Source: Planctomycetota bacterium (GTDB lineage: Bacteria > Planctomycetota > Phycisphaerae > UBA1845). Taken from it: 36,036 nt of DNA. A model generated the notes under the pieces. The model was given only the letters and a program-made list of their open reading frames with translations, searched no databases and was not told the origin of the DNA. Of the stretch, positions 3,346 to 35,305 are shown piece by piece (within the stretch, counting starts at the first letter, position 1; the number at the start of each line of letters is the position of its first letter). The position numbers were made by a program, and so were the translations under genes. The stretch is taken from NCBI GenBank assembly GCA_030616775.1, contig JAUWWQ010000045.1:1-36036 (forward strand), given 5' to 3'.

Positions 3346-4155
3346 ATGACCACGCAGAATGACAACATATGGCACGGAGCCTACAAGATCCCCTGGCATG
3401 ACCCTGATTTCAGCAGGCGAATGCTGGTCGAACACTTGACACAAGACAGTGATTTGGCCAGTCGCCGTACCGAGTGGATTGACAGGCAGGCTGCGTGGAT
3501 TCATGACCACCTGCTTCACGGGAAACCTTCAAGAATACTAGACTTGGGCTGCGGACCAGGATTCTACTTGCACCGCTTGGCAATGTTGGGACACCGCTGC
3601 CGTGGGATCGACTTTGGTCCAGCGTCCATCGAGTACGCGCAACAGCACAACCCCGACGAATCGCGGTGCGAGTTCATTCTGGGCGACATTCGCCAAGTAC
3701 CGTTCCGTGGTCCTTACGACCTGGCAATGATTCTATATGGCGAACTCAATGTCTTCTCGCCTGCTGAAGCACTGGCGATCCTTCGAGGGGTGCAGGTAGG
3801 CCTCACCTCGCAGGGCTGTCTGATCGTCGAAGTGCAAACGCCGGAAGCCGTGGAACATATGGGACGTGGCGGCCCCTCGGAGCAGCAGTGCGAGTCCGGC
3901 CTGTTTTCAGATCGCCCTCATCGCTGCTACACGGAGAACCAGTGGCTACCTGAGCAGAAGATAGCCATCCAAACGTTTTCCGTCACCGAAGCAACCGATG
4001 GGCAGACGCGGAAGTACCGTAGTACGACTAAAGCCTGGCCAGATGGTGAGATGATCGAGTTACTGACGGGCGCTTGCCTCCGCGAGGTGGTGCGATGTGA
4101 TGAATGGCCAGGCAACACTGACGCCTTGGCGTTGTGGATCGCCCGGAAGAGTTAG
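3346..4155 (+). CDS. Class I SAM-dependent methyltransferase
   Basis: 269-residue cytoplasmic protein. Motif I ILDLGCGPGFYL (64-75) binds S-adenosylmethionine; GIDF with acidic Asp89 ends strand 2; GDIRQVPF (113-120) is the usual post-II motif and YDLAMILYGELN (124-135) is the motif IV region. This is the standard seven-strand Rossmann methyltransferase fold (Methyltransf_25/11-like). The substrate cannot be told from sequence. The N-terminal 60 residues, with HDPDFSRRML, resemble small-molecule rather than rRNA methylases, but that is a weak inference. The gene stands alone between leftward genes and has a poor ribosome binding site before ATG 3346. Confidence 0.85.
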   Translation: MTTQNDNIWHGAYKIPWHDPDFSRRMLVEHLTQDSDLASRRTEWIDRQAAWIHDHLLHGKPSRILDLGCGPGFYLHRLAMLGHRCRGIDFGPASIEYAQQHNPDESRCEFILGDIRQVPFRGPYDLAMILYGELNVFSPAEALAILRGVQVGLTSQGCLIVEVQTPEAVEHMGRGGPSEQQCESGLFSDRPHRCYTENQWLPEQKIAIQTFSVTEATDGQTRKYRSTTKAWPDGEMIELLTGACLREVVRCDEWPGNTDALALWIARKS

Positions 4156-28094: not shown

Positions 28095-28127
28095 AGGCGA
28101 CCTTCGCGGGAGCACTGTGTCGCGTGA

Positions 28128-28168
28128 AACGGGCGTCCCACCGTGACCATCACGGTGGGACGCCCGTT
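28128..28168. terminator. Perfect 19-bp hairpin between convergent genes
   Basis: Bases 28128-28146 are exactly complementary to 28150-28168 with loop CCA (stem starts AACGGGCGTCCC, ends CGTGA). It lies 34 bp after the Asp-box gene and 138 bp before the end of the facing Cys-repeat gene, a position fitting a bidirectional terminator. There is no T-run on the rightward side. Confidence 0.7.
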
Positions 28169-28305: not shown

Positions 28306-31300
28306 CTAAGGGTTGCAGTCCGGGTCGGGCTGCGGGCAGAAGGTGTCGCACTCCCCGTCGCCGTACCAGTCATTCTCCTCACAGATGTCGACGGATTCGC
28401 AGTCCGGGTCGGGGTGCGGGCAGAAGGTGTCGCACTCCCCGTCGCCATACCAGCCGTTTTCTGCACAGATGTCGATGGATTCGCAGTCCGGGTCGGGCTG
28501 CGGGCAGAACGTGTCGCACTCCCCGTCGCCGTACCAGCCGTTTTCCTCACAAATGTCGACGGATTCGCAGTCCGGGTCGGGCTGCGGGCAGAAGGTGTCG
28601 CATTCCCCGTCGCCATACCAGCCGTTTTCCTCACAGATATCGGCGGATTCGCAATCCGGGTCGGGCTGCGGACAGAAGGTGTCGCACTCCCCGTCGCCGT
28701 ACCAGCCATTCTCCTCGCAAATGTCGACAGCAACCTCGCAATCCGGGTCCGGTGCGGGACAGAACTCGTCGCACTCCCCGTCCCCATACCAGCCGTTCTC
28801 CTCACAGATGTCGATAAAGTCGCAGTCCGGGTCGGGGTGCAGGCAGATTTCATCGCATTTGCCGTCACCGTACCACCCGTTCTCCTCACAGATGTCCGTG
28901 GATTCGCAGTCCGGGTCGGGCTGCGGGCAGAACACATCGCACTCACCGTCACCGTACCAGCCGTTCTCTTCGCAGATGTCAAAGAAGTCGCAGTCCGGAT
29001 CGGGCTCCAGACAGTACGGATCGCACACCCCGTCTCCGTACCAGCCGTTCTCGGCGCACTCGTCGAAGTCCTTGCAATCGGGATCCGGTGACGGACAGAA
29101 CAGGTCGCACTCACCGTCGCCGTACCAGCCATTGTCGAAGCAAACGTCGAAGGAATCGCAATCCGGATCGGGCCGCGGACAGAATTCATCGCACTCCCCG
29201 TCCCCGTACCACCCGTTCACCTCGCAAATGTCAAAGAATTCGCCCTCGCAGTCGGGGTCGGGATGTGGACAGATGGTATCGCACTCGCCGTCGCCGTACC
29301 ACCCATTTTCGAAGCAGATGTCGTAGAACTCCACGCCGCAGTCGGGGTCGGGCATGGGGCAGAACAAGTCGCATTCCCCGTCACCGTACCAGCCGTTTTC
29401 TGCACACATGTCGAAAAAGTCGCCTTCGCAGTCCGGGTCGGGGTATGGGCAGAAGTCGTCGCATTCCCCGTCGCCGTACCAGCCGTTGATTTCGCAGATG
29501 TCGAGGAAGAACTCGCAGTCCGGGTCGGGGTGCGGGCAGAACTCGTCGCATATACCGTCGCCGTACCAGCGGTTCATCTCGCATTCGTCGAAGCCCAGTC
29601 CACCTACGAAGACTTCGCAGGAAGCGAAAACCTCGTGACCTGTGGAGTCATAGGCCTGGAAGGCCACTTCGTACCTGCCCTCACTGTAGAACTCGGCTAT
29701 GGCATCGTGGACGAACGGATCGGTGCTGGCCACGGACACTACATCAGACGCTCCGCTGGGGTACCGCGGCTGCACATGCTCATATTCCTGGTCCTCGGTC
29801 GCAAGGAAAAAGTCACCGGTGCCGAAGACGAACCAGTCGGGATAGTTGAGTTCGGGGACCATGGAGCCTCGTACGCAGAAATAGCCCGGCTCACCGACAT
29901 TGAGGCCTGGCGGGCACTCCATAGAGAGCCCGTCGGGGGGAGGCTCGTCGCCGACGCCTCCCCGACCGACGTTGATGCCGCACGTGTACACCCCGAACAC
30001 CTGTTCGCTTCCCGACAGGTCGGATACGATGAGGGACATTTCGAGGAAGCCCTCCGCCGTTGCCCGGACCATCGTCGACGGTTGGAAGGGGGCAGCCAAG
30101 AGAAACCCGAAACCGTCGCTGATGAACCAGTCGAAGTCCAGCGAGCCCTCGTCCTGGTTCCGGCCGAACACATACTCGACCGTGAAATCCTCGCCCTCGG
30201 CGACACTACCGGGGCAGACGATGCCGCTGGTGACGTCCTCACCGGTAATCACCTCGCAAGTGAAGATCCGTTCGGGAGGCAGGCTGTTCTGGTCGTGGTA
30301 GCGCAAGCGGCCCAGTTGGACGGCCGGGTTCTCGTCCTGCAAATCGACCAGCACGAGATCGAACTCCACAAGGGCCCCGTCCTCGCTCACGAAGCCGTTG
30401 ATGAACGCGGCGTCGAACAGCTTCTCGGCCGAAGCTTCAGTAACGCCGAACAGATCCACGTCGAATGTCAGATCACCGTGGAAACGCCGCTCGATGGTGA
30501 CGTGGTTGTTGTCGTCCAGTTGCGTTCCGGTAAATACCGGCGTGAGGACCAGTTCGAAATCGGCTTCCTCGCCGGGCGCCATGTTGATCGGCGTTCCCGT
30601 CGAGTAGTTAATGGTGATCCCGGGCTCACCGCCGCCGCCCAGGCTGAAGTCGGGGAAGACCAGATGCCGGTCGAATTCGCTCTGCAGGATTCCGGCCATG
30701 TCGAACGTGAGGCGATTGGCCACCCCGGTCAACTCAATGCAGAACCCTTCCGCGTCAAATAGGATATAGGTGTTCCCCGCCAACCTGCGGACCACTTCGG
30801 GGACCTGGTCCAGCGTTACGTCGTCGCCCAGTTCGTCTCGGTCGACTTCGTCAAGGCCGAAACTCGAAGCAACTCCTGCCAGACGTATGGCCGCTTCCTT
30901 CAACTCCCTCGCCCTGGCGTTGGTTGCCAGTGGAGAGTCCGGGTTCTCGTTCTCGTCGCAGATGGACTCGACGACCTCCTCGAACCTCTCAAGCCCCCTT
31001 CTCAATTCGGCCGGCTTGCCGGACTCGGACCGCTGCATGCGCACGGAATCCTTGGAACGCTTGGCGGCACGCCGCGCCCGGACACGCTCCTTGGCCAGTT
31101 CGTAATTGACCGCTGGTTCCCCCTCGATCAGGCTCCCGTTCTCGTCGGTCAGGCGGATATTGACGCCATCGTCGGTGTAGACCAGGTCGGCGGCCGTGTT
31201 GTCCGACATACGGAAGTTGACGGGCCGCCCTTCGCTGTCCAGCGACGCCTTCAGGGTCGTCCCATCAGACGTTTTGACGTTGGCCTCGGTGATGACGGTC

Positions 31301-31518
31301 TCGCCGGCGTCGTCCTCGCGGGCCCGGAAGGTGTATTCGTTGCCCTGTTCATCCTTGGCCACGGCGTAGTTCCCGCCACTGGAATCGAACGCGATGGTCA
31401 AGGTCCCGCCCGCGCCACCATTACCCGGTCCCACACTGGTGGCACCGCTGCCGCATCCGCAAAACGCCAGTATTACCGGAACATAGAACAATGTCCTTGC
31501 CAAACGAGCTGTCCGCAT
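28306..31518 (-). CDS. Exported protein with 15 C-terminal Cys-rich tandem repeats
   Basis: 1070 residues. An N-terminal hydrophobic segment ends AFCGCGSG, lipobox-like but imperfect, so it is probably a lipoprotein or secreted. Residues about 40-630 are beta-rich with no domain I recognise except possible PKD-like parts (FDVDLFG, DYVFGRN-type segments). From about 642 to 1070 run 15 tandem units of 27-31 residues, C-x10-C-x3-C-x6-C, core WYGDGECDxFCPxPDPDC. The last five are nearly identical, the first ones divergent, indicating growth at the 3' end. AAAGGA lies 6 nt before ATG 31518. The repeats resemble GDGxCD calcium/disulfide motifs; surface adhesion or metal binding is a guess. Confidence 0.85.
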   Translation of the reverse strand: MRTARLARTLFYVPVILAFCGCGSGATSVGPGNGGAGGTLTIAFDSSGGNYAVAKDEQGNEYTFRAREDDAGETVITEANVKTSDGTTLKASLDSEGRPVNFRMSDNTAADLVYTDDGVNIRLTDENGSLIEGEPAVNYELAKERVRARRAAKRSKDSVRMQRSESGKPAELRRGLERFEEVVESICDENENPDSPLATNARARELKEAAIRLAGVASSFGLDEVDRDELGDDVTLDQVPEVVRRLAGNTYILFDAEGFCIELTGVANRLTFDMAGILQSEFDRHLVFPDFSLGGGGEPGITINYSTGTPINMAPGEEADFELVLTPVFTGTQLDDNNHVTIERRFHGDLTFDVDLFGVTEASAEKLFDAAFINGFVSEDGALVEFDLVLVDLQDENPAVQLGRLRYHDQNSLPPERIFTCEVITGEDVTSGIVCPGSVAEGEDFTVEYVFGRNQDEGSLDFDWFISDGFGFLLAAPFQPSTMVRATAEGFLEMSLIVSDLSGSEQVFGVYTCGINVGRGGVGDEPPPDGLSMECPPGLNVGEPGYFCVRGSMVPELNYPDWFVFGTGDFFLATEDQEYEHVQPRYPSGASDVVSVASTDPFVHDAIAEFYSEGRYEVAFQAYDSTGHEVFASCEVFVGGLGFDECEMNRWYGDGICDEFCPHPDPDCEFFLDICEINGWYGDGECDDFCPYPDPDCEGDFFDMCAENGWYGDGECDLFCPMPDPDCGVEFYDICFENGWYGDGECDTICPHPDPDCEGEFFDICEVNGWYGDGECDEFCPRPDPDCDSFDVCFDNGWYGDGECDLFCPSPDPDCKDFDECAENGWYGDGVCDPYCLEPDPDCDFFDICEENGWYGDGECDVFCPQPDPDCESTDICEENGWYGDGKCDEICLHPDPDCDFIDICEENGWYGDGECDEFCPAPDPDCEVAVDICEENGWYGDGECDTFCPQPDPDCESADICEENGWYGDGECDTFCPQPDPDCESVDICEENGWYGDGECDTFCPQPDPDCESIDICAENGWYGDGECDTFCPHPDPDCESVDICEENDWYGDGECDTFCPQPDPDCNP
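28309..29600 (-). repeat. Tandem DNA repeat encoding Cys-rich units
   Basis: About 15 head-to-tail units of 81-93 bp, most 84 bp, encoding the repeat domain of the Cys-rich protein. Units nearest 28306-28730 (protein C-terminus) are almost identical; those near 29600 are diverged in sequence and length. Confidence 0.85.
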
Positions 31519-32130: not shown

Positions 32131-32382
32131 ACAGTATTAATAGGCGGGGTCCAATAATATTCTCAAGATTTTCAGTACTGATATCCGATTCCTTGAGTTG
32201 AGGGATCGTAGGGACTCTCTCGCTAAGTCCGCACCGTGCGGCCAGCGTAGACGTCCCATCGGGGCAAGAATGGACAAGGTGGCCCCAATCCCCCCAGTCG
32301 ACCGGTTCGATGGGCAGCAGGAGGCGGTCCTTCGGAACGGCTAAGCTCCCACGCCTCCCTCATGACAGGTGAGGGTAAACCC

Positions 32383-33759
32383 GTGCGTACAATTACGATC
32401 GCCAACCAGAAAGGTGGGTGCGGTAAGACTACCACCGCCATAAATCTCTCGGCCTCGCTGGCCCGCGAGGGTCGTCGTGTTCTGCTGGTCGATCTTGATC
32501 CCCAGGCGCATTGCGCCCTTGGGATGGCCGTGCCCGAAGAGCAGATCGACTTGTCGATTTTCGATTGCCTGGTGCGCCAGGTTGAGGGGGAGCCGCTTGA
32601 GCTTTCCCGGATTACGTGGCAAATCGCGCCAAACCTCGACCTGGCTCCATCACGATCGAATCTCGCAACGCTGGAGCCGCGGCTGGTGACAGACGAGGAC
32701 GCCGATGCCCTACTCGAACAACTGCTCGAGCTGAATGCCGGCCGCTACGACTATTGCGTCGTGGACTGCCCGCCGCACCTGGGGCTGCTGATGCAAAACG
32801 GCCTGCGTGCGGCAGACGACATAATCATTCCGGTCGACACCGGATACTTCTCGCTCCACGGGCTGACCCAGCAGTTGGCGATGATCGAGCAGGAGGGGGA
32901 GCGGAACGGTTCCAATCCGTCGGTCCGGGTTCTCGCCAACCAGTACGACGTGCGGACCAAGCTGGCCCGGGAGATCCTGGCGGAGCTTCGGAAGCGGTTT
33001 AAGGACGTGGTGTTCGAGACGATCGTCAACTTCAACACCAAGCTCAAAGAAGGGGTGAGCTATGGCCAGCCGATCACCGAGTTCGCGCCGACCAGTATGG
33101 GGGCTCGTGACTTTCAGAAACTCGCCCGGGAGTTGATCGCCGGTGAGCCGCCGAAGGCTGCTACCGGTGAGATTCTCGAGCACGTTGAGCGGCTGGCTGC
33201 CGACGCCGAGCGCTTACTGGCAACAACAACAATCCTGGTCGACAATCGCGAAGGGACGGCAGCGGAACCGGCCACCCACACCGGACCGGCCACCATAACA
33301 CCGACTGACGTACTCTCAGCCGGAGCCATTGTGGAGAAGGCTCCCTGGCAACACGCCGCACGTCAGACACCAAAGGTTTCGGAACCCAGCGTGTCCGGAT
33401 GGAAGCCGGCCGCCACTCGGCCGTCGCCCCCAAGTGAGCCGTCGCCCAGCGCGGAGATCGATCGGAAGATCGAGGCGATCTACGGTGTACGGCAGGAAGG
33501 TGAGCTTATCGTCTTTCGCAGTCACAATCCGGACGCCGGCGAGGTATGCCTGGCGGGGGACTTCAACGATTGGATGCCGCACACCACGCCGATGCGACGG
33601 CTTCCGGCCGGTGATTTCGAAACGCGCCTGCGGCTGCCACAGGGGCGTTATCGTTATCGCCTGGTGGTCGATGGCCGGTGGTCGCACGATCACTTCAATC
33701 CCGCAACCGAGATGAACGAGTACGGGGAGCTCAATTCGATCGTCGAGGTGAAGCGGTAG
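32383..33759 (+). CDS. ParA-type ATPase fused to CBM48-like glycogen-binding domain
   Basis: 458 residues from GTG 32383, which has AGGTGAGG 7 nt upstream; ATG 32362 is seven codons longer but has no RBS. Residues 1-255 are a ParA/MinD ATPase: deviant Walker A KGGCGKTTTA with signature Lys10, LLVDLDPQAH, VVDCPPHLG, LANQYDVRTK. A Pro/Ser/Thr-rich linker (~265-365) leads to a CBM48/AMPK-beta-like module (~375-458): EVCLAGDFNDWMP, LPQGRYRYRLVVDGRW, HDHFNPATEMNEYG. ParA proteins segregate DNA or position cell structures; the fused domain normally binds glycogen-type glucans. No parB is adjacent. Combined role is unknown; polysaccharide-granule positioning is speculation. Confidence 0.88.
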   Translation: MRTITIANQKGGCGKTTTAINLSASLAREGRRVLLVDLDPQAHCALGMAVPEEQIDLSIFDCLVRQVEGEPLELSRITWQIAPNLDLAPSRSNLATLEPRLVTDEDADALLEQLLELNAGRYDYCVVDCPPHLGLLMQNGLRAADDIIIPVDTGYFSLHGLTQQLAMIEQEGERNGSNPSVRVLANQYDVRTKLAREILAELRKRFKDVVFETIVNFNTKLKEGVSYGQPITEFAPTSMGARDFQKLARELIAGEPPKAATGEILEHVERLAADAERLLATTTILVDNREGTAAEPATHTGPATITPTDVLSAGAIVEKAPWQHAARQTPKVSEPSVSGWKPAATRPSPPSEPSPSAEIDRKIEAIYGVRQEGELIVFRSHNPDAGEVCLAGDFNDWMPHTTPMRRLPAGDFETRLRLPQGRYRYRLVVDGRWSHDHFNPATEMNEYGELNSIVEVKR

Positions 33760-33763
33760 GACG

Positions 33764-35305
33764 ATGCTCACACGACTGGTCCTCACGGGTGGGGCGCTCT
33801 TCGCAACGGTGGCTACCGAGCTGCTGGGGCAGTCGGCCCCACCACTGCTTGACCCGCAATCGCTCAATACGAACGCTGACAGTGATGGCCACAGGCGTTC
33901 ATGTCCTCGCTTCACCGCTGACCAAGAACGCTCGTCCGGAACGTGGCCCGCCACTGAGGGCCTCCGTCAGAGATTTGGCACCGATAGGCACGTCTCGACC
34001 GCCCGGCTTGAGCCGCCTGTATGTTGTTGTATGGTCGCCGAACTCGTCGCGAGTGACACCGTGCTTGGCGACGGGTTCGCAGGCTCTTTGTCCCTGGATG
34101 GCAAGTTCCTCCTGGTTGGGGCCCGGGACCACAACGATGGTGCTGGTGCAGCCTATGTTTTCAGACGGGAAGGGGCCAGCTGGACCGAGGAGGCAAAACT
34201 CACCGCAAGCGATGCAGCGGCTGGCCACACCTTCGGGGTGGTAGCGATTAGTGGAGATCATGCGATTGTCGGCGCACCCCAAGTTCACGCCGCCCCACAT
34301 TCGGGAGCAGCTTACATTTTCCGACGTACGAGTACCGGCTGGGTGCAGCAAACCAAGTTGACCGCGAGCGACGCCACCGCGAATGACTATTTCGGAGAGA
34401 AGGTAGCCATCAGCGGGAAACATGCAGTAGTAGGGGCCGTCTTCGCCGACAGTCCAGGCGGGCGATTCACCGGTGCCGCATACGTCTTCAGGCGTAGAGG
34501 CACGACATGGCTTGAGACCGACAAGCTCACGGCAAGCGACGCCGCACCTTTCGATTATTTCCGAGTCGTCTCCATCAGCAGGAATTATATCCTGGTCGGC
34601 GCACCGGGAGACGATGACGCCGGAGATGACTCAGGCTCGGCATACATCTTCCACCGTCGGGGTCGGACTTGGATCGAGCAGGCGAAGCTCCTAGGGAGTA
34701 GCGTTGGGCCGGGTGACTTGTTCGGCCAGCTGGTTTCCTTAAGCGGCGATTGTGCCGTGGTTGCGGCTCCGAACACTCAGCACAACGGTCAGCCTGCGGT
34801 GGCGTATGTTTTCAGGCGTAATGGAACTGATTGGGCGGAAGAGGTCATCCTTGGCGTTGGCGAGGCTTGGGACGTAGTAGTTGATGTCTCAACCAACGGC
34901 GAGTTTGTGCTGATTACGGCGGTCCTCGATAACGCAATCGGCCAAAAGTACTTGTACAAGCGCACTGGTCATACTTGGACCAAAGTAACCAGTTTGCCCG
35001 GTGGGTCGACTGGACACTGCTCCGTTGGCGACAACTTTGCCGCGATTGGAGCCCAGGAATGGGCTGCCTACATCTACTACCTTCCGGTCTGCGCAGCTGT
35101 TTGCGGCGACGGCGTCTGTGATGTGAACGAGGATATGTGCAAATGCCCCGCCGATTGCCGGATACCCTCGGAGTTCGACGACTGCAATGATAACGATCTC
35201 CCCGACGAGTGCGACCAATCTGGCGATGTGGACGGCAACGGACGAGTCAACATTCGTGATTACAGCGGCTTCTGCGCATGTATAACTGGATCCTCCAATC
35301 GGTGA
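33764..35305 (+). CDS. Exported FG-GAP repeat protein, stopped within dockerin-like tail
   Basis: 513 residues, starting 4 nt after the ParA-CBM48 stop. Signal peptide about 1-24 (LVLTGGALFATVATELLGQS). Residues ~30-85 are nondescript and could be out-of-frame remnant. About 88-440 holds repeats of ~50 residues, KLTASDAAAGHTFG-VVAISG-HAIVGAP-...-GAAYVFRR, an FG-GAP beta-propeller. Then comes a Cys cluster CGDGVCDVNEDMCKCPADC, DCNDNDLPDECD and a first EF-hand-like dockerin half GDVDGNGRVNIRDYSGF. Translation ends at TGA 35303 but homologous sequence continues in the same frame to 35422. Probably a surface or cell-wall attached protein; an intact version would be 552 residues. Confidence 0.75.
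   Translation: MLTRLVLTGGALFATVATELLGQSAPPLLDPQSLNTNADSDGHRRSCPRFTADQERSSGTWPATEGLRQRFGTDRHVSTARLEPPVCCCMVAELVASDTVLGDGFAGSLSLDGKFLLVGARDHNDGAGAAYVFRREGASWTEEAKLTASDAAAGHTFGVVAISGDHAIVGAPQVHAAPHSGAAYIFRRTSTGWVQQTKLTASDATANDYFGEKVAISGKHAVVGAVFADSPGGRFTGAAYVFRRRGTTWLETDKLTASDAAPFDYFRVVSISRNYILVGAPGDDDAGDDSGSAYIFHRRGRTWIEQAKLLGSSVGPGDLFGQLVSLSGDCAVVAAPNTQHNGQPAVAYVFRRNGTDWAEEVILGVGEAWDVVVDVSTNGEFVLITAVLDNAIGQKYLYKRTGHTWTKVTSLPGGSTGHCSVGDNFAAIGAQEWAAYIYYLPVCAAVCGDGVCDVNEDMCKCPADCRIPSEFDDCNDNDLPDECDQSGDVDGNGRVNIRDYSGFCACITGSSNR

Follow-up and report, generated by a model that had tools for sequence, protein, structure and literature searches.

Organization of the fusion gene

The window (the whole stretch of 36,036 nucleotides analysed here, contig JAUWWQ010000045.1 of a Planctomycetota bacterium of the class Phycisphaerae) contains, on its forward strand, one uninterrupted frame that encodes a ParA-type ATPase joined to a C-terminal module of the AMPK-beta/CBM48 type (Table 1). 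This arrangement, including the disordered linker between the two parts, had been proposed from the nucleotide sequence alone and is borne out by the frame itself, by Pfam searches and by a structure model built from 31 family members, in which the ATPase core and the module were confident and a disordered region of about residues 289-360, with pLDDT below 50 almost throughout, lay between helices 269-288 and 362-374. The gene had been placed at 32383-33759; its end holds, but the frame opens upstream at an ATG, and position 32383 is a GTG located seven codons into the 465-codon frame. Because AGGTGAGGG precedes this GTG and several relatives, L146 and L160 among them, start at the matching residue, the true protein may have 458 amino acids, with AGGTGAGGG as a possible ribosome-binding site for the shorter form.

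Table 1. Positions of the features discussed in the text (window coordinates unless a contig or locus is named)
Feature	Position	Strand	Remarks
ParA-CBM fusion gene	32362..33759	+	465 codons from ATG 32362; stop 33757-33759; alternative start GTG 32383
AGGTGAGGG and 7-base spacer, possible ribosome-binding site	32367..32382	+	AGGTGAGGG at 32367-32375, followed after the spacer by GTG 32383; sequence read, putative role
ParA/Soj-like ATPase domain, residues 9-260	32386..33141	+	Walker A KGGCGKTT, D44/D46, D135; candidate DNA-contact residues R198, K227, K229
Helix 269-288, C-terminal to the ATPase	33166..33225	+	Several nearly invariant residues in 31 relatives
Pro/Ser/Ala-rich linker, residues 289-360	33226..33441	+	Predicted disordered
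Helix 362-374, preceding the module	33445..33483	+	DRKIExIYGVR; relatives' alignment and structure model
AMPK1_CBM/CBM48 module, residues 391-464	33532..33753	+	W404, R433, W440, Y454, N458
FG-GAP repeat protein gene	33764..35305	+	Begins 4 bases past the fusion gene
Gene of 1070-aa protein	28306..31518	-	Cys-rich repeats, C-terminal
parS-like sites	3512..3527; 28116..28131		Weak
Branching enzyme GlgB, window's genome	C69:19705-21555
GT5-type synthase match, window's genome	C69:15729-16238
GH57-type branching-enzyme gene, G415	L153:1062-2795	-	About 4.2 kb upstream of the fusion
Small AMPK1_CBM frames with adjoining synthase and/or phosphorylase matches, other genomes of the class	G341 C1:233130-236765; G346 C1:1041292-1044931; G377 C13; G400 C6

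The ATPase domain

Residues 9-180 matched the Pfam family AAA_31 (2.7e-46, 158.1 bits), and the protein also matched CbiA (2.1e-20). The best fold matches of the ATPase were Soj/ParA proteins, with 9a6n first (Z 35.8, 248 residues, 1.6 A), followed by 8ray, 6iub, 8jmj and 2bek; the likeness to Soj/ParA (9a6n, 2bek, 8jmj) covers residues 7-262 and includes the KGGxGKT motif. The deviant Walker A motif with its signature lysine and the aspartates of Walker A' and Walker B are present. In an alignment of 126 family proteins, four pairs of which are identical over the ATPase rows used for the tree described below, K17, K22 and D44 were each kept in 125 members and D135 in all 126. Its residues and modelled fold show an intact ATPase with a deviant Walker motif and the fold of Soj, and it looks active. 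In addition, R198 (110/126), K227 (111/126) and K229 (Lys or Arg in 124/126) align with basic positions of Soj, which we take to be those that contact DNA; these remain candidates, and residues 226-237, holding the two lysines, were poorly modelled. Unlike Soj/ParA, the fusion protein carries the C-terminal linker and module, and its gene has no adjoining parB.

The putative glucan-binding module

Residues 391-464 matched AMPK1_CBM (1.9e-13, 50.8 bits against a cut-off of 26.8), and the module also matched CBM_48 (2.0e-06, 28.4 bits against 22.4); it was the sole AMPK1_CBM match in the window's genome at an E-value of 0.01. Modelled alone, it reached a pLDDT of 92.5. Its top sequence matches were AMPK beta subunits, and the AMPK domains 1z0n, 1z0m and 4yef, whose PDB titles mention glycogen binding or a cyclodextrin complex, were among its best matches by sequence and by fold. 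When Foldseek matches were ranked by E-value, AMPK occupied the first rows; by Z score, the CBM48 domains of feruloyl esterase and amylase came first and, with that of the E. coli branching enzyme, reached 14.0-14.5, whereas AMPK beta reached 13.3-13.7 at about 37% identity (4yef_C: 13.7, 1.2 A over 79 residues). Since these Z scores lie within 1 or little more of each other, the fold leaves the ligand unfixed.

Excerpts of PMC6274970 state that AMPK beta1 loses glycogen binding with the substitutions W100G and K126Q and binds glycogen less well with W133L, S108E and G147R. We found that W100, K126, W133 and G147 align to W404, R433, W440 and G455, which are kept in 122, 122, 120 and 121, respectively, of the 123 module-bearing members of the 126-protein set (the truncated loci L052 and L065 excluded). 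N458, the equivalent of N150, is kept in 113/123, while 116/123 have Phe or Tyr at position 454. Compared with AMPK beta, K126 is replaced by Arg, L146 by Phe/Tyr and T148 mostly by Glu, and the module is attached to an ATPase rather than belonging to a kinase-binding subunit. The sequence-only reading had named the absence of glucan-contact residues as a result that would speak against it; this absence was looked for and did not occur. Judged from alignment and model, the module is not degenerate, its AMPK glycogen-contact residues being intact, and it looks able to bind alpha-glucan.

CBM48 domains of other specificity exist; those of feruloyl esterases, which match the module's fold, bind xylan-type sugars. 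The module might accordingly bind no storage glucan and serve instead as a protein docking surface, or recognise an envelope or exported polysaccharide, with the ATPase placing an export machine in the manner of BcsQ. The latter is a MinD-type ATPase linked to a polysaccharide that acts with BcsR and BcsE in cellulose secretion, BcsE being a multidomain partner described as a degenerate receiver-GGDEF protein that also has an N-terminal domain (excerpts of PMC7439463). Pfam CBP_BcsQ indeed matched the fusion ATPase above its cut-off (5.3e-15, 56 bits against 21.3), though AAA_31 scored far higher, and the fact that phosphorylase does not track the fusion (see below) would also suit such a role. 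In five genomes of family f101 (L136, L139, L145, L148 and L156), moreover, the fusion is preceded on the same strand, at a distance of 0.2-2.6 kb, by what we take to be a CapD-like nucleotide-sugar gene. However, the NCBIfam BcsQ model TIGR03371 stayed below its cut-off (89.6 against 157.85 bits), no export genes were recognised among recurring neighbours outside f101, and the positions that contact glycogen in AMPK are some of the best conserved in the module, so that we consider this explanation unlikely. No bcs genes were recognised near the fusion among neighbours examined with Pfam or by eye.

Distribution and phylogeny

An independent scan of named genomes found both domains joined in 31 of 33 loci, one of which (L052) ends at a contig edge; of the other two, L065 holds a piece of the module at the beginning of a contig and L066 an unrelated ParA. 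The 30 complete fusions were 50-92% identical to the window protein. A chance fusion or a chimeric assembly is ruled out by this conservation. The named relatives were mostly labelled Phycisphaerae or Planctomycetota. Two loci, L043 and L060, come from records labelled Alphaproteobacteria and Blastopirellula marina, yet are typical members within the fusion tree, which suggests that these records are mislabelled bins.

The phylum was sampled evenly with 294 genomes. Of the 22 that belong to the window's class, 20 carry the fusion, G220 and G127 being the exceptions; of the 272 from outside it, 32 had a module match at 1e-7. One match was opened in each of ten of these 32, and a single ParA fusion was seen among them, in G058. 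Within the class, the fusion occurs in at least 93 of 150 genomes, each seen in an opened locus: in 92 as one open frame and in G381 as two adjacent frames holding ParA and module. G387, whose contig begins with the module and the downstream partner, the ATPase part being cut off, was not counted. Among the 57 genomes without a counted fusion, no module was seen in the seven that were opened (six at the best ParA match, G383 at the second); the other 50 were assessed only by their scores, which makes 93 a floor. The distribution check that the sequence-only reading had proposed thus yields a class-wide family.

When 148 ATPase domains were placed in a quick tree, provisional in its root and unsure in the placement of long rows such as that of G058, a branch with SH-aLRT 100 separated the 22 sampled unfused ParAs from the fused ones. 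The module-less relatives G220 and G374 sit on the fused side, a pattern consistent with one origin of the fusion followed by two losses of the module. The groups of the fusion tree largely match taxonomic families, as would be expected for vertical inheritance.

Neighbouring genes, ParB and parS

As had been proposed, no parB was found near the fusion gene: matches to PF02195 in the whole genome were limited to contigs C32 (1.2e-30), C81 (1.8e-8) and C100 (2.8e-8), with none on C84, the contig of the window. Likewise, no inverted repeats were found in the segment 31519-33764, and its direct repeats are all short and present in two copies, in keeping with the claim that centromere-like repeats are lacking nearby. 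The window does contain two parS-like sites, each with three mismatches to the canonical pattern; 0.05 such sites were expected, and two occurred in none of 100 shuffles.

In the same genome (G000; L071, L072), an unfused Soj-like ParA is encoded on C39, which has no ParB-type match, and the strongest ParB-type gene lies on C32, which has no ParA match; because the two are on separate contigs, parA and parB may not adjoin in this lineage. One could imagine, from the ParB-type protein on C32, the two weak parS-like sites and the fact that Soj/ParA proteins are the closest structures, that the fusion protein partitions a chromosome or plasmid together with a distant ParB, the module being a side feature. 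Against this stand the lack of an adjoining parB, the 57 of 150 genomes of the class in which no fusion was counted, and the separate ParA on C39, which is among the 22 unfused proteins beyond the SH-aLRT 100 branch. Partition as the main role was set aside on account of that ParA and the tree split, and we regard it as very improbable.

No neighbour is general among the close relatives of the window. The commonest, a repeat protein with a signal-like start, occurs in 10/33 loci and in part of the family only; seryl-tRNA synthetase (6/33), phosphofructokinase (4/33) and, recognised by eye, NrdR and dCMP deaminase are similarly limited to parts of the family. A sugar ABC-transporter neighbour, seen at first in 7/33 loci and in 12/79 after wider clustering, was dropped because the wider clusters mixed unlike ABC ATPases at scattered distances. 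In the window itself, the gene following the fusion encodes an FG-GAP repeat protein; in the 92% identical relative L034, no such gene separates the fusion from serS, indicating a lineage-specific arrangement. On the opposite strand, the 1070-aa protein carries in its C-terminal part, by eye, about 15 tandem Cys-rich repeats of the type NGWYGDGECDxFCPxPDPDC, and it had no Pfam match at 0.01.

An FlhG-like protein encoded downstream

In 57 of the 93 genomes with the fusion, we found the gene immediately downstream, on the same strand, to encode a member of an FlhG-like protein family, a pattern that emerges across families more distant from the window. This family was assembled by merging several neighbour clusters with iterated profiles; the partner profile was built from rows of 30 of the 57, the other 27 being found by it in loci outside its build, and the 57 comprise 55 that passed a distance filter together with G034 and G397, in which the overlap of the partner frame with the fusion frame exceeds the filter's limit. 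The partner also adjoins the module-less gene of G374. Two of the 36 fusion genomes without it have less than 500 bases of downstream sequence, and no adjacent partner was seen in the family of the window or in several further ones (f94, f95, f7, f106, f107), nor in the loci of the named-genome scan.

The partner profile matched FlhG 4rz2 (9.3e-14, profile positions 122-249) and FleN 5j1j (1.2e-8). Unlike FlhG/FleN, however, the partner has no P-loop, the pattern KGGxGK(S/T) being found in none of 58 frames; it carries an LxxIxHLFLS-type motif near the N-terminus (47/56, by a pattern written after viewing the alignment), and its C-terminal part had no match. Searches with Pfam and NCBIfam revealed no family that was convincing or common to the members. 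The profile is also matched, at about 1e-8 to 1e-20, by true FlhG frames located elsewhere in the same genomes, so that the assignment of the weakest adjacent partners (G318, G057, G349 and G369; 2e-17 to 2e-23) rests also on position and on the missing P-loop. Described stimulators and partners of ParA/MinD ATPases have a basic N-terminus (excerpts of PMC10241942); that of the present family is not consistently basic, with a mean charge of +0.6 before and -0.8 after the motif. In the window's genome, the profile gave a single match, a 303-aa frame on C1 (3.5e-13), which is most likely FlhG itself; the partner is consequently taken as lost or unrecognisable there.

Perhaps the FlhG-like protein is an ATPase-dead regulator of the ParA; as an undescribed family it constitutes a second lead. 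Since it adjoins 57 of the 93 fusions, ParA is not alone in that part of the family; together with the class-wide distribution, this alters the picture drawn by the sequence-only reading, whose account of the domains stands with the contact residues kept.

A P-loop-less relative of FlhG beside the fusion would also fit a glucan sensor of the AMPK kind, in which the module would register how full or how branched the store is and, on binding, would shift the state of the ATPase or of its partner without any granule being moved. FlhG and FleN act as regulators, FleN structures being titled antiactivator; AMPK beta subunits are the best sequence matches of the module; and two clade members lack the module, one of which (G374) retains the partner, as if the switch outlived the sensor. 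Moreover, glycogen inhibits AMPK activity through this domain (excerpts of PMC6274970). The switch states would then control, for example, division, replication or an enzyme, but no regulated pathway was recognised among the recurring neighbours, and most members retain the residues that are candidates for DNA contact, as in a nucleoid binder. Both the sensor and such control by its states seem to us possible, though on the unlikely side.

Genes of glucan metabolism

The window's genome encodes the branching enzyme GlgB and has a GT5-type synthase match, both on C69 (Table 1), as well as a phosphorylase-family match on C29. In at least four genomes of the class, AMPK1_CBM occurs in small stand-alone frames (109-122 aa) beside synthase and/or phosphorylase matches. 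A branching enzyme of the GlgB or GH57 type was found in 37/93 genomes with the fusion versus 8/57 without (Fisher p 0.0009); the corresponding figures were 15/93 versus 2/57 for GlgB above cut-off (p 0.018), 23/93 versus 7/57 for the GH57 enzyme (p 0.09) and 86/93 versus 46/57 for GT5 at an E-value of 1e-3 (p 0.04). These tests ignore kinship and the number of tests, and being uncorrected they are not what our case rests on. Glycogen phosphorylase does not track the fusion in the 150 genomes; because it is about equally common with (69/93) and without it (44/57), a strict tie of the fusion to glycogen metabolism is not supported. By the models used, 56 of the 93 fused genomes have no branching enzyme and 10 have neither branching enzyme nor phosphorylase, and no glycogen gene was recognised among the recurring neighbours of 33 and 79 loci. 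G415 has a GH57-type branching-enzyme gene upstream of its fusion. Predicted glycogen breakdown in Phycisphaerae is mentioned in excerpts of PMC11266412.

Possible function of the fusion protein

With a probability of about 0.4, we favour a switch of the ParA type that is coupled to alpha-glucan; its most likely task would be to position storage glucan, or enzymes bound to it, on the nucleoid or to tether them there. The idea of a glucan-binding, cargo-positioning ATPase, put forward by the sequence-only reading, is a plausible hypothesis that builds on the residues and modelled folds of both domains. ATP-bound dimers would be anchored to the nucleoid by the basic residues that align with the DNA-contact positions of Soj, and the two linked modules of each dimer would hold glycogen, another alpha-glucan or enzymes riding on glucan. 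ATP hydrolysis would release or redistribute the glucan, and in many members the FlhG-like partner, which lacks a P-loop, would act as the gate; in the window's lineage, where the partner was not found, gating might be performed by another protein or by the glucan itself. The net effect would be that storage glucan or enzymes are spread or tethered along the nucleoid and shared between daughter cells.

A close parallel is McdA/McdB, likewise a ParA-like ATPase system for a metabolic body, the carboxysome. McdA is among the fold matches of the fusion ATPase (Z 29.4); unlike the fusion, it has no signature lysine, and McdB is a separate partner protein, as excerpted accounts describe them. Separate proteins connect ParA/MinD ATPases to their cargo as a rule (excerpts of PMC10241942), so that a cargo-binding domain on the ATPase itself misfits the usual ratchet. 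It is doubtful, though conceivable, that all the parts come together in a polysaccharide-cargo machine in which ParA's own domain holds glycogen, the FlhG-like gate is ATPase-dead and the nucleoid shares out the energy store; if true, this would be a ParA system with a sugar polymer as cargo and the cargo hook on the ATPase itself. Among the matches listed for literature on ParA with glycogen, Planctomycetes or Phycisphaerae, the titles and abstract openings describe no fusion of ParA to an AMPK1 CBM/CBM48 module, and those on glycogen granule positioning and the nucleoid describe no ParA-CBM fusion either.

Class-wide conservation and the partner make the finding stronger than first stated, while its tie to glycogen metabolism is weaker. 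According to excerpts of PMC10241942, ParA/MinD ATPases position chromosomes, plasmids, carboxysomes, flagella and chemotaxis arrays; a large number of these ATPases, whose partners are unknown, go by the name of orphans. For the present family, the cargo or signal may be encoded within the fusion protein itself; if so, bacterial positioning, sharing or sensing of storage glucan would become directly testable, with point mutants at W404, R433 and W440.
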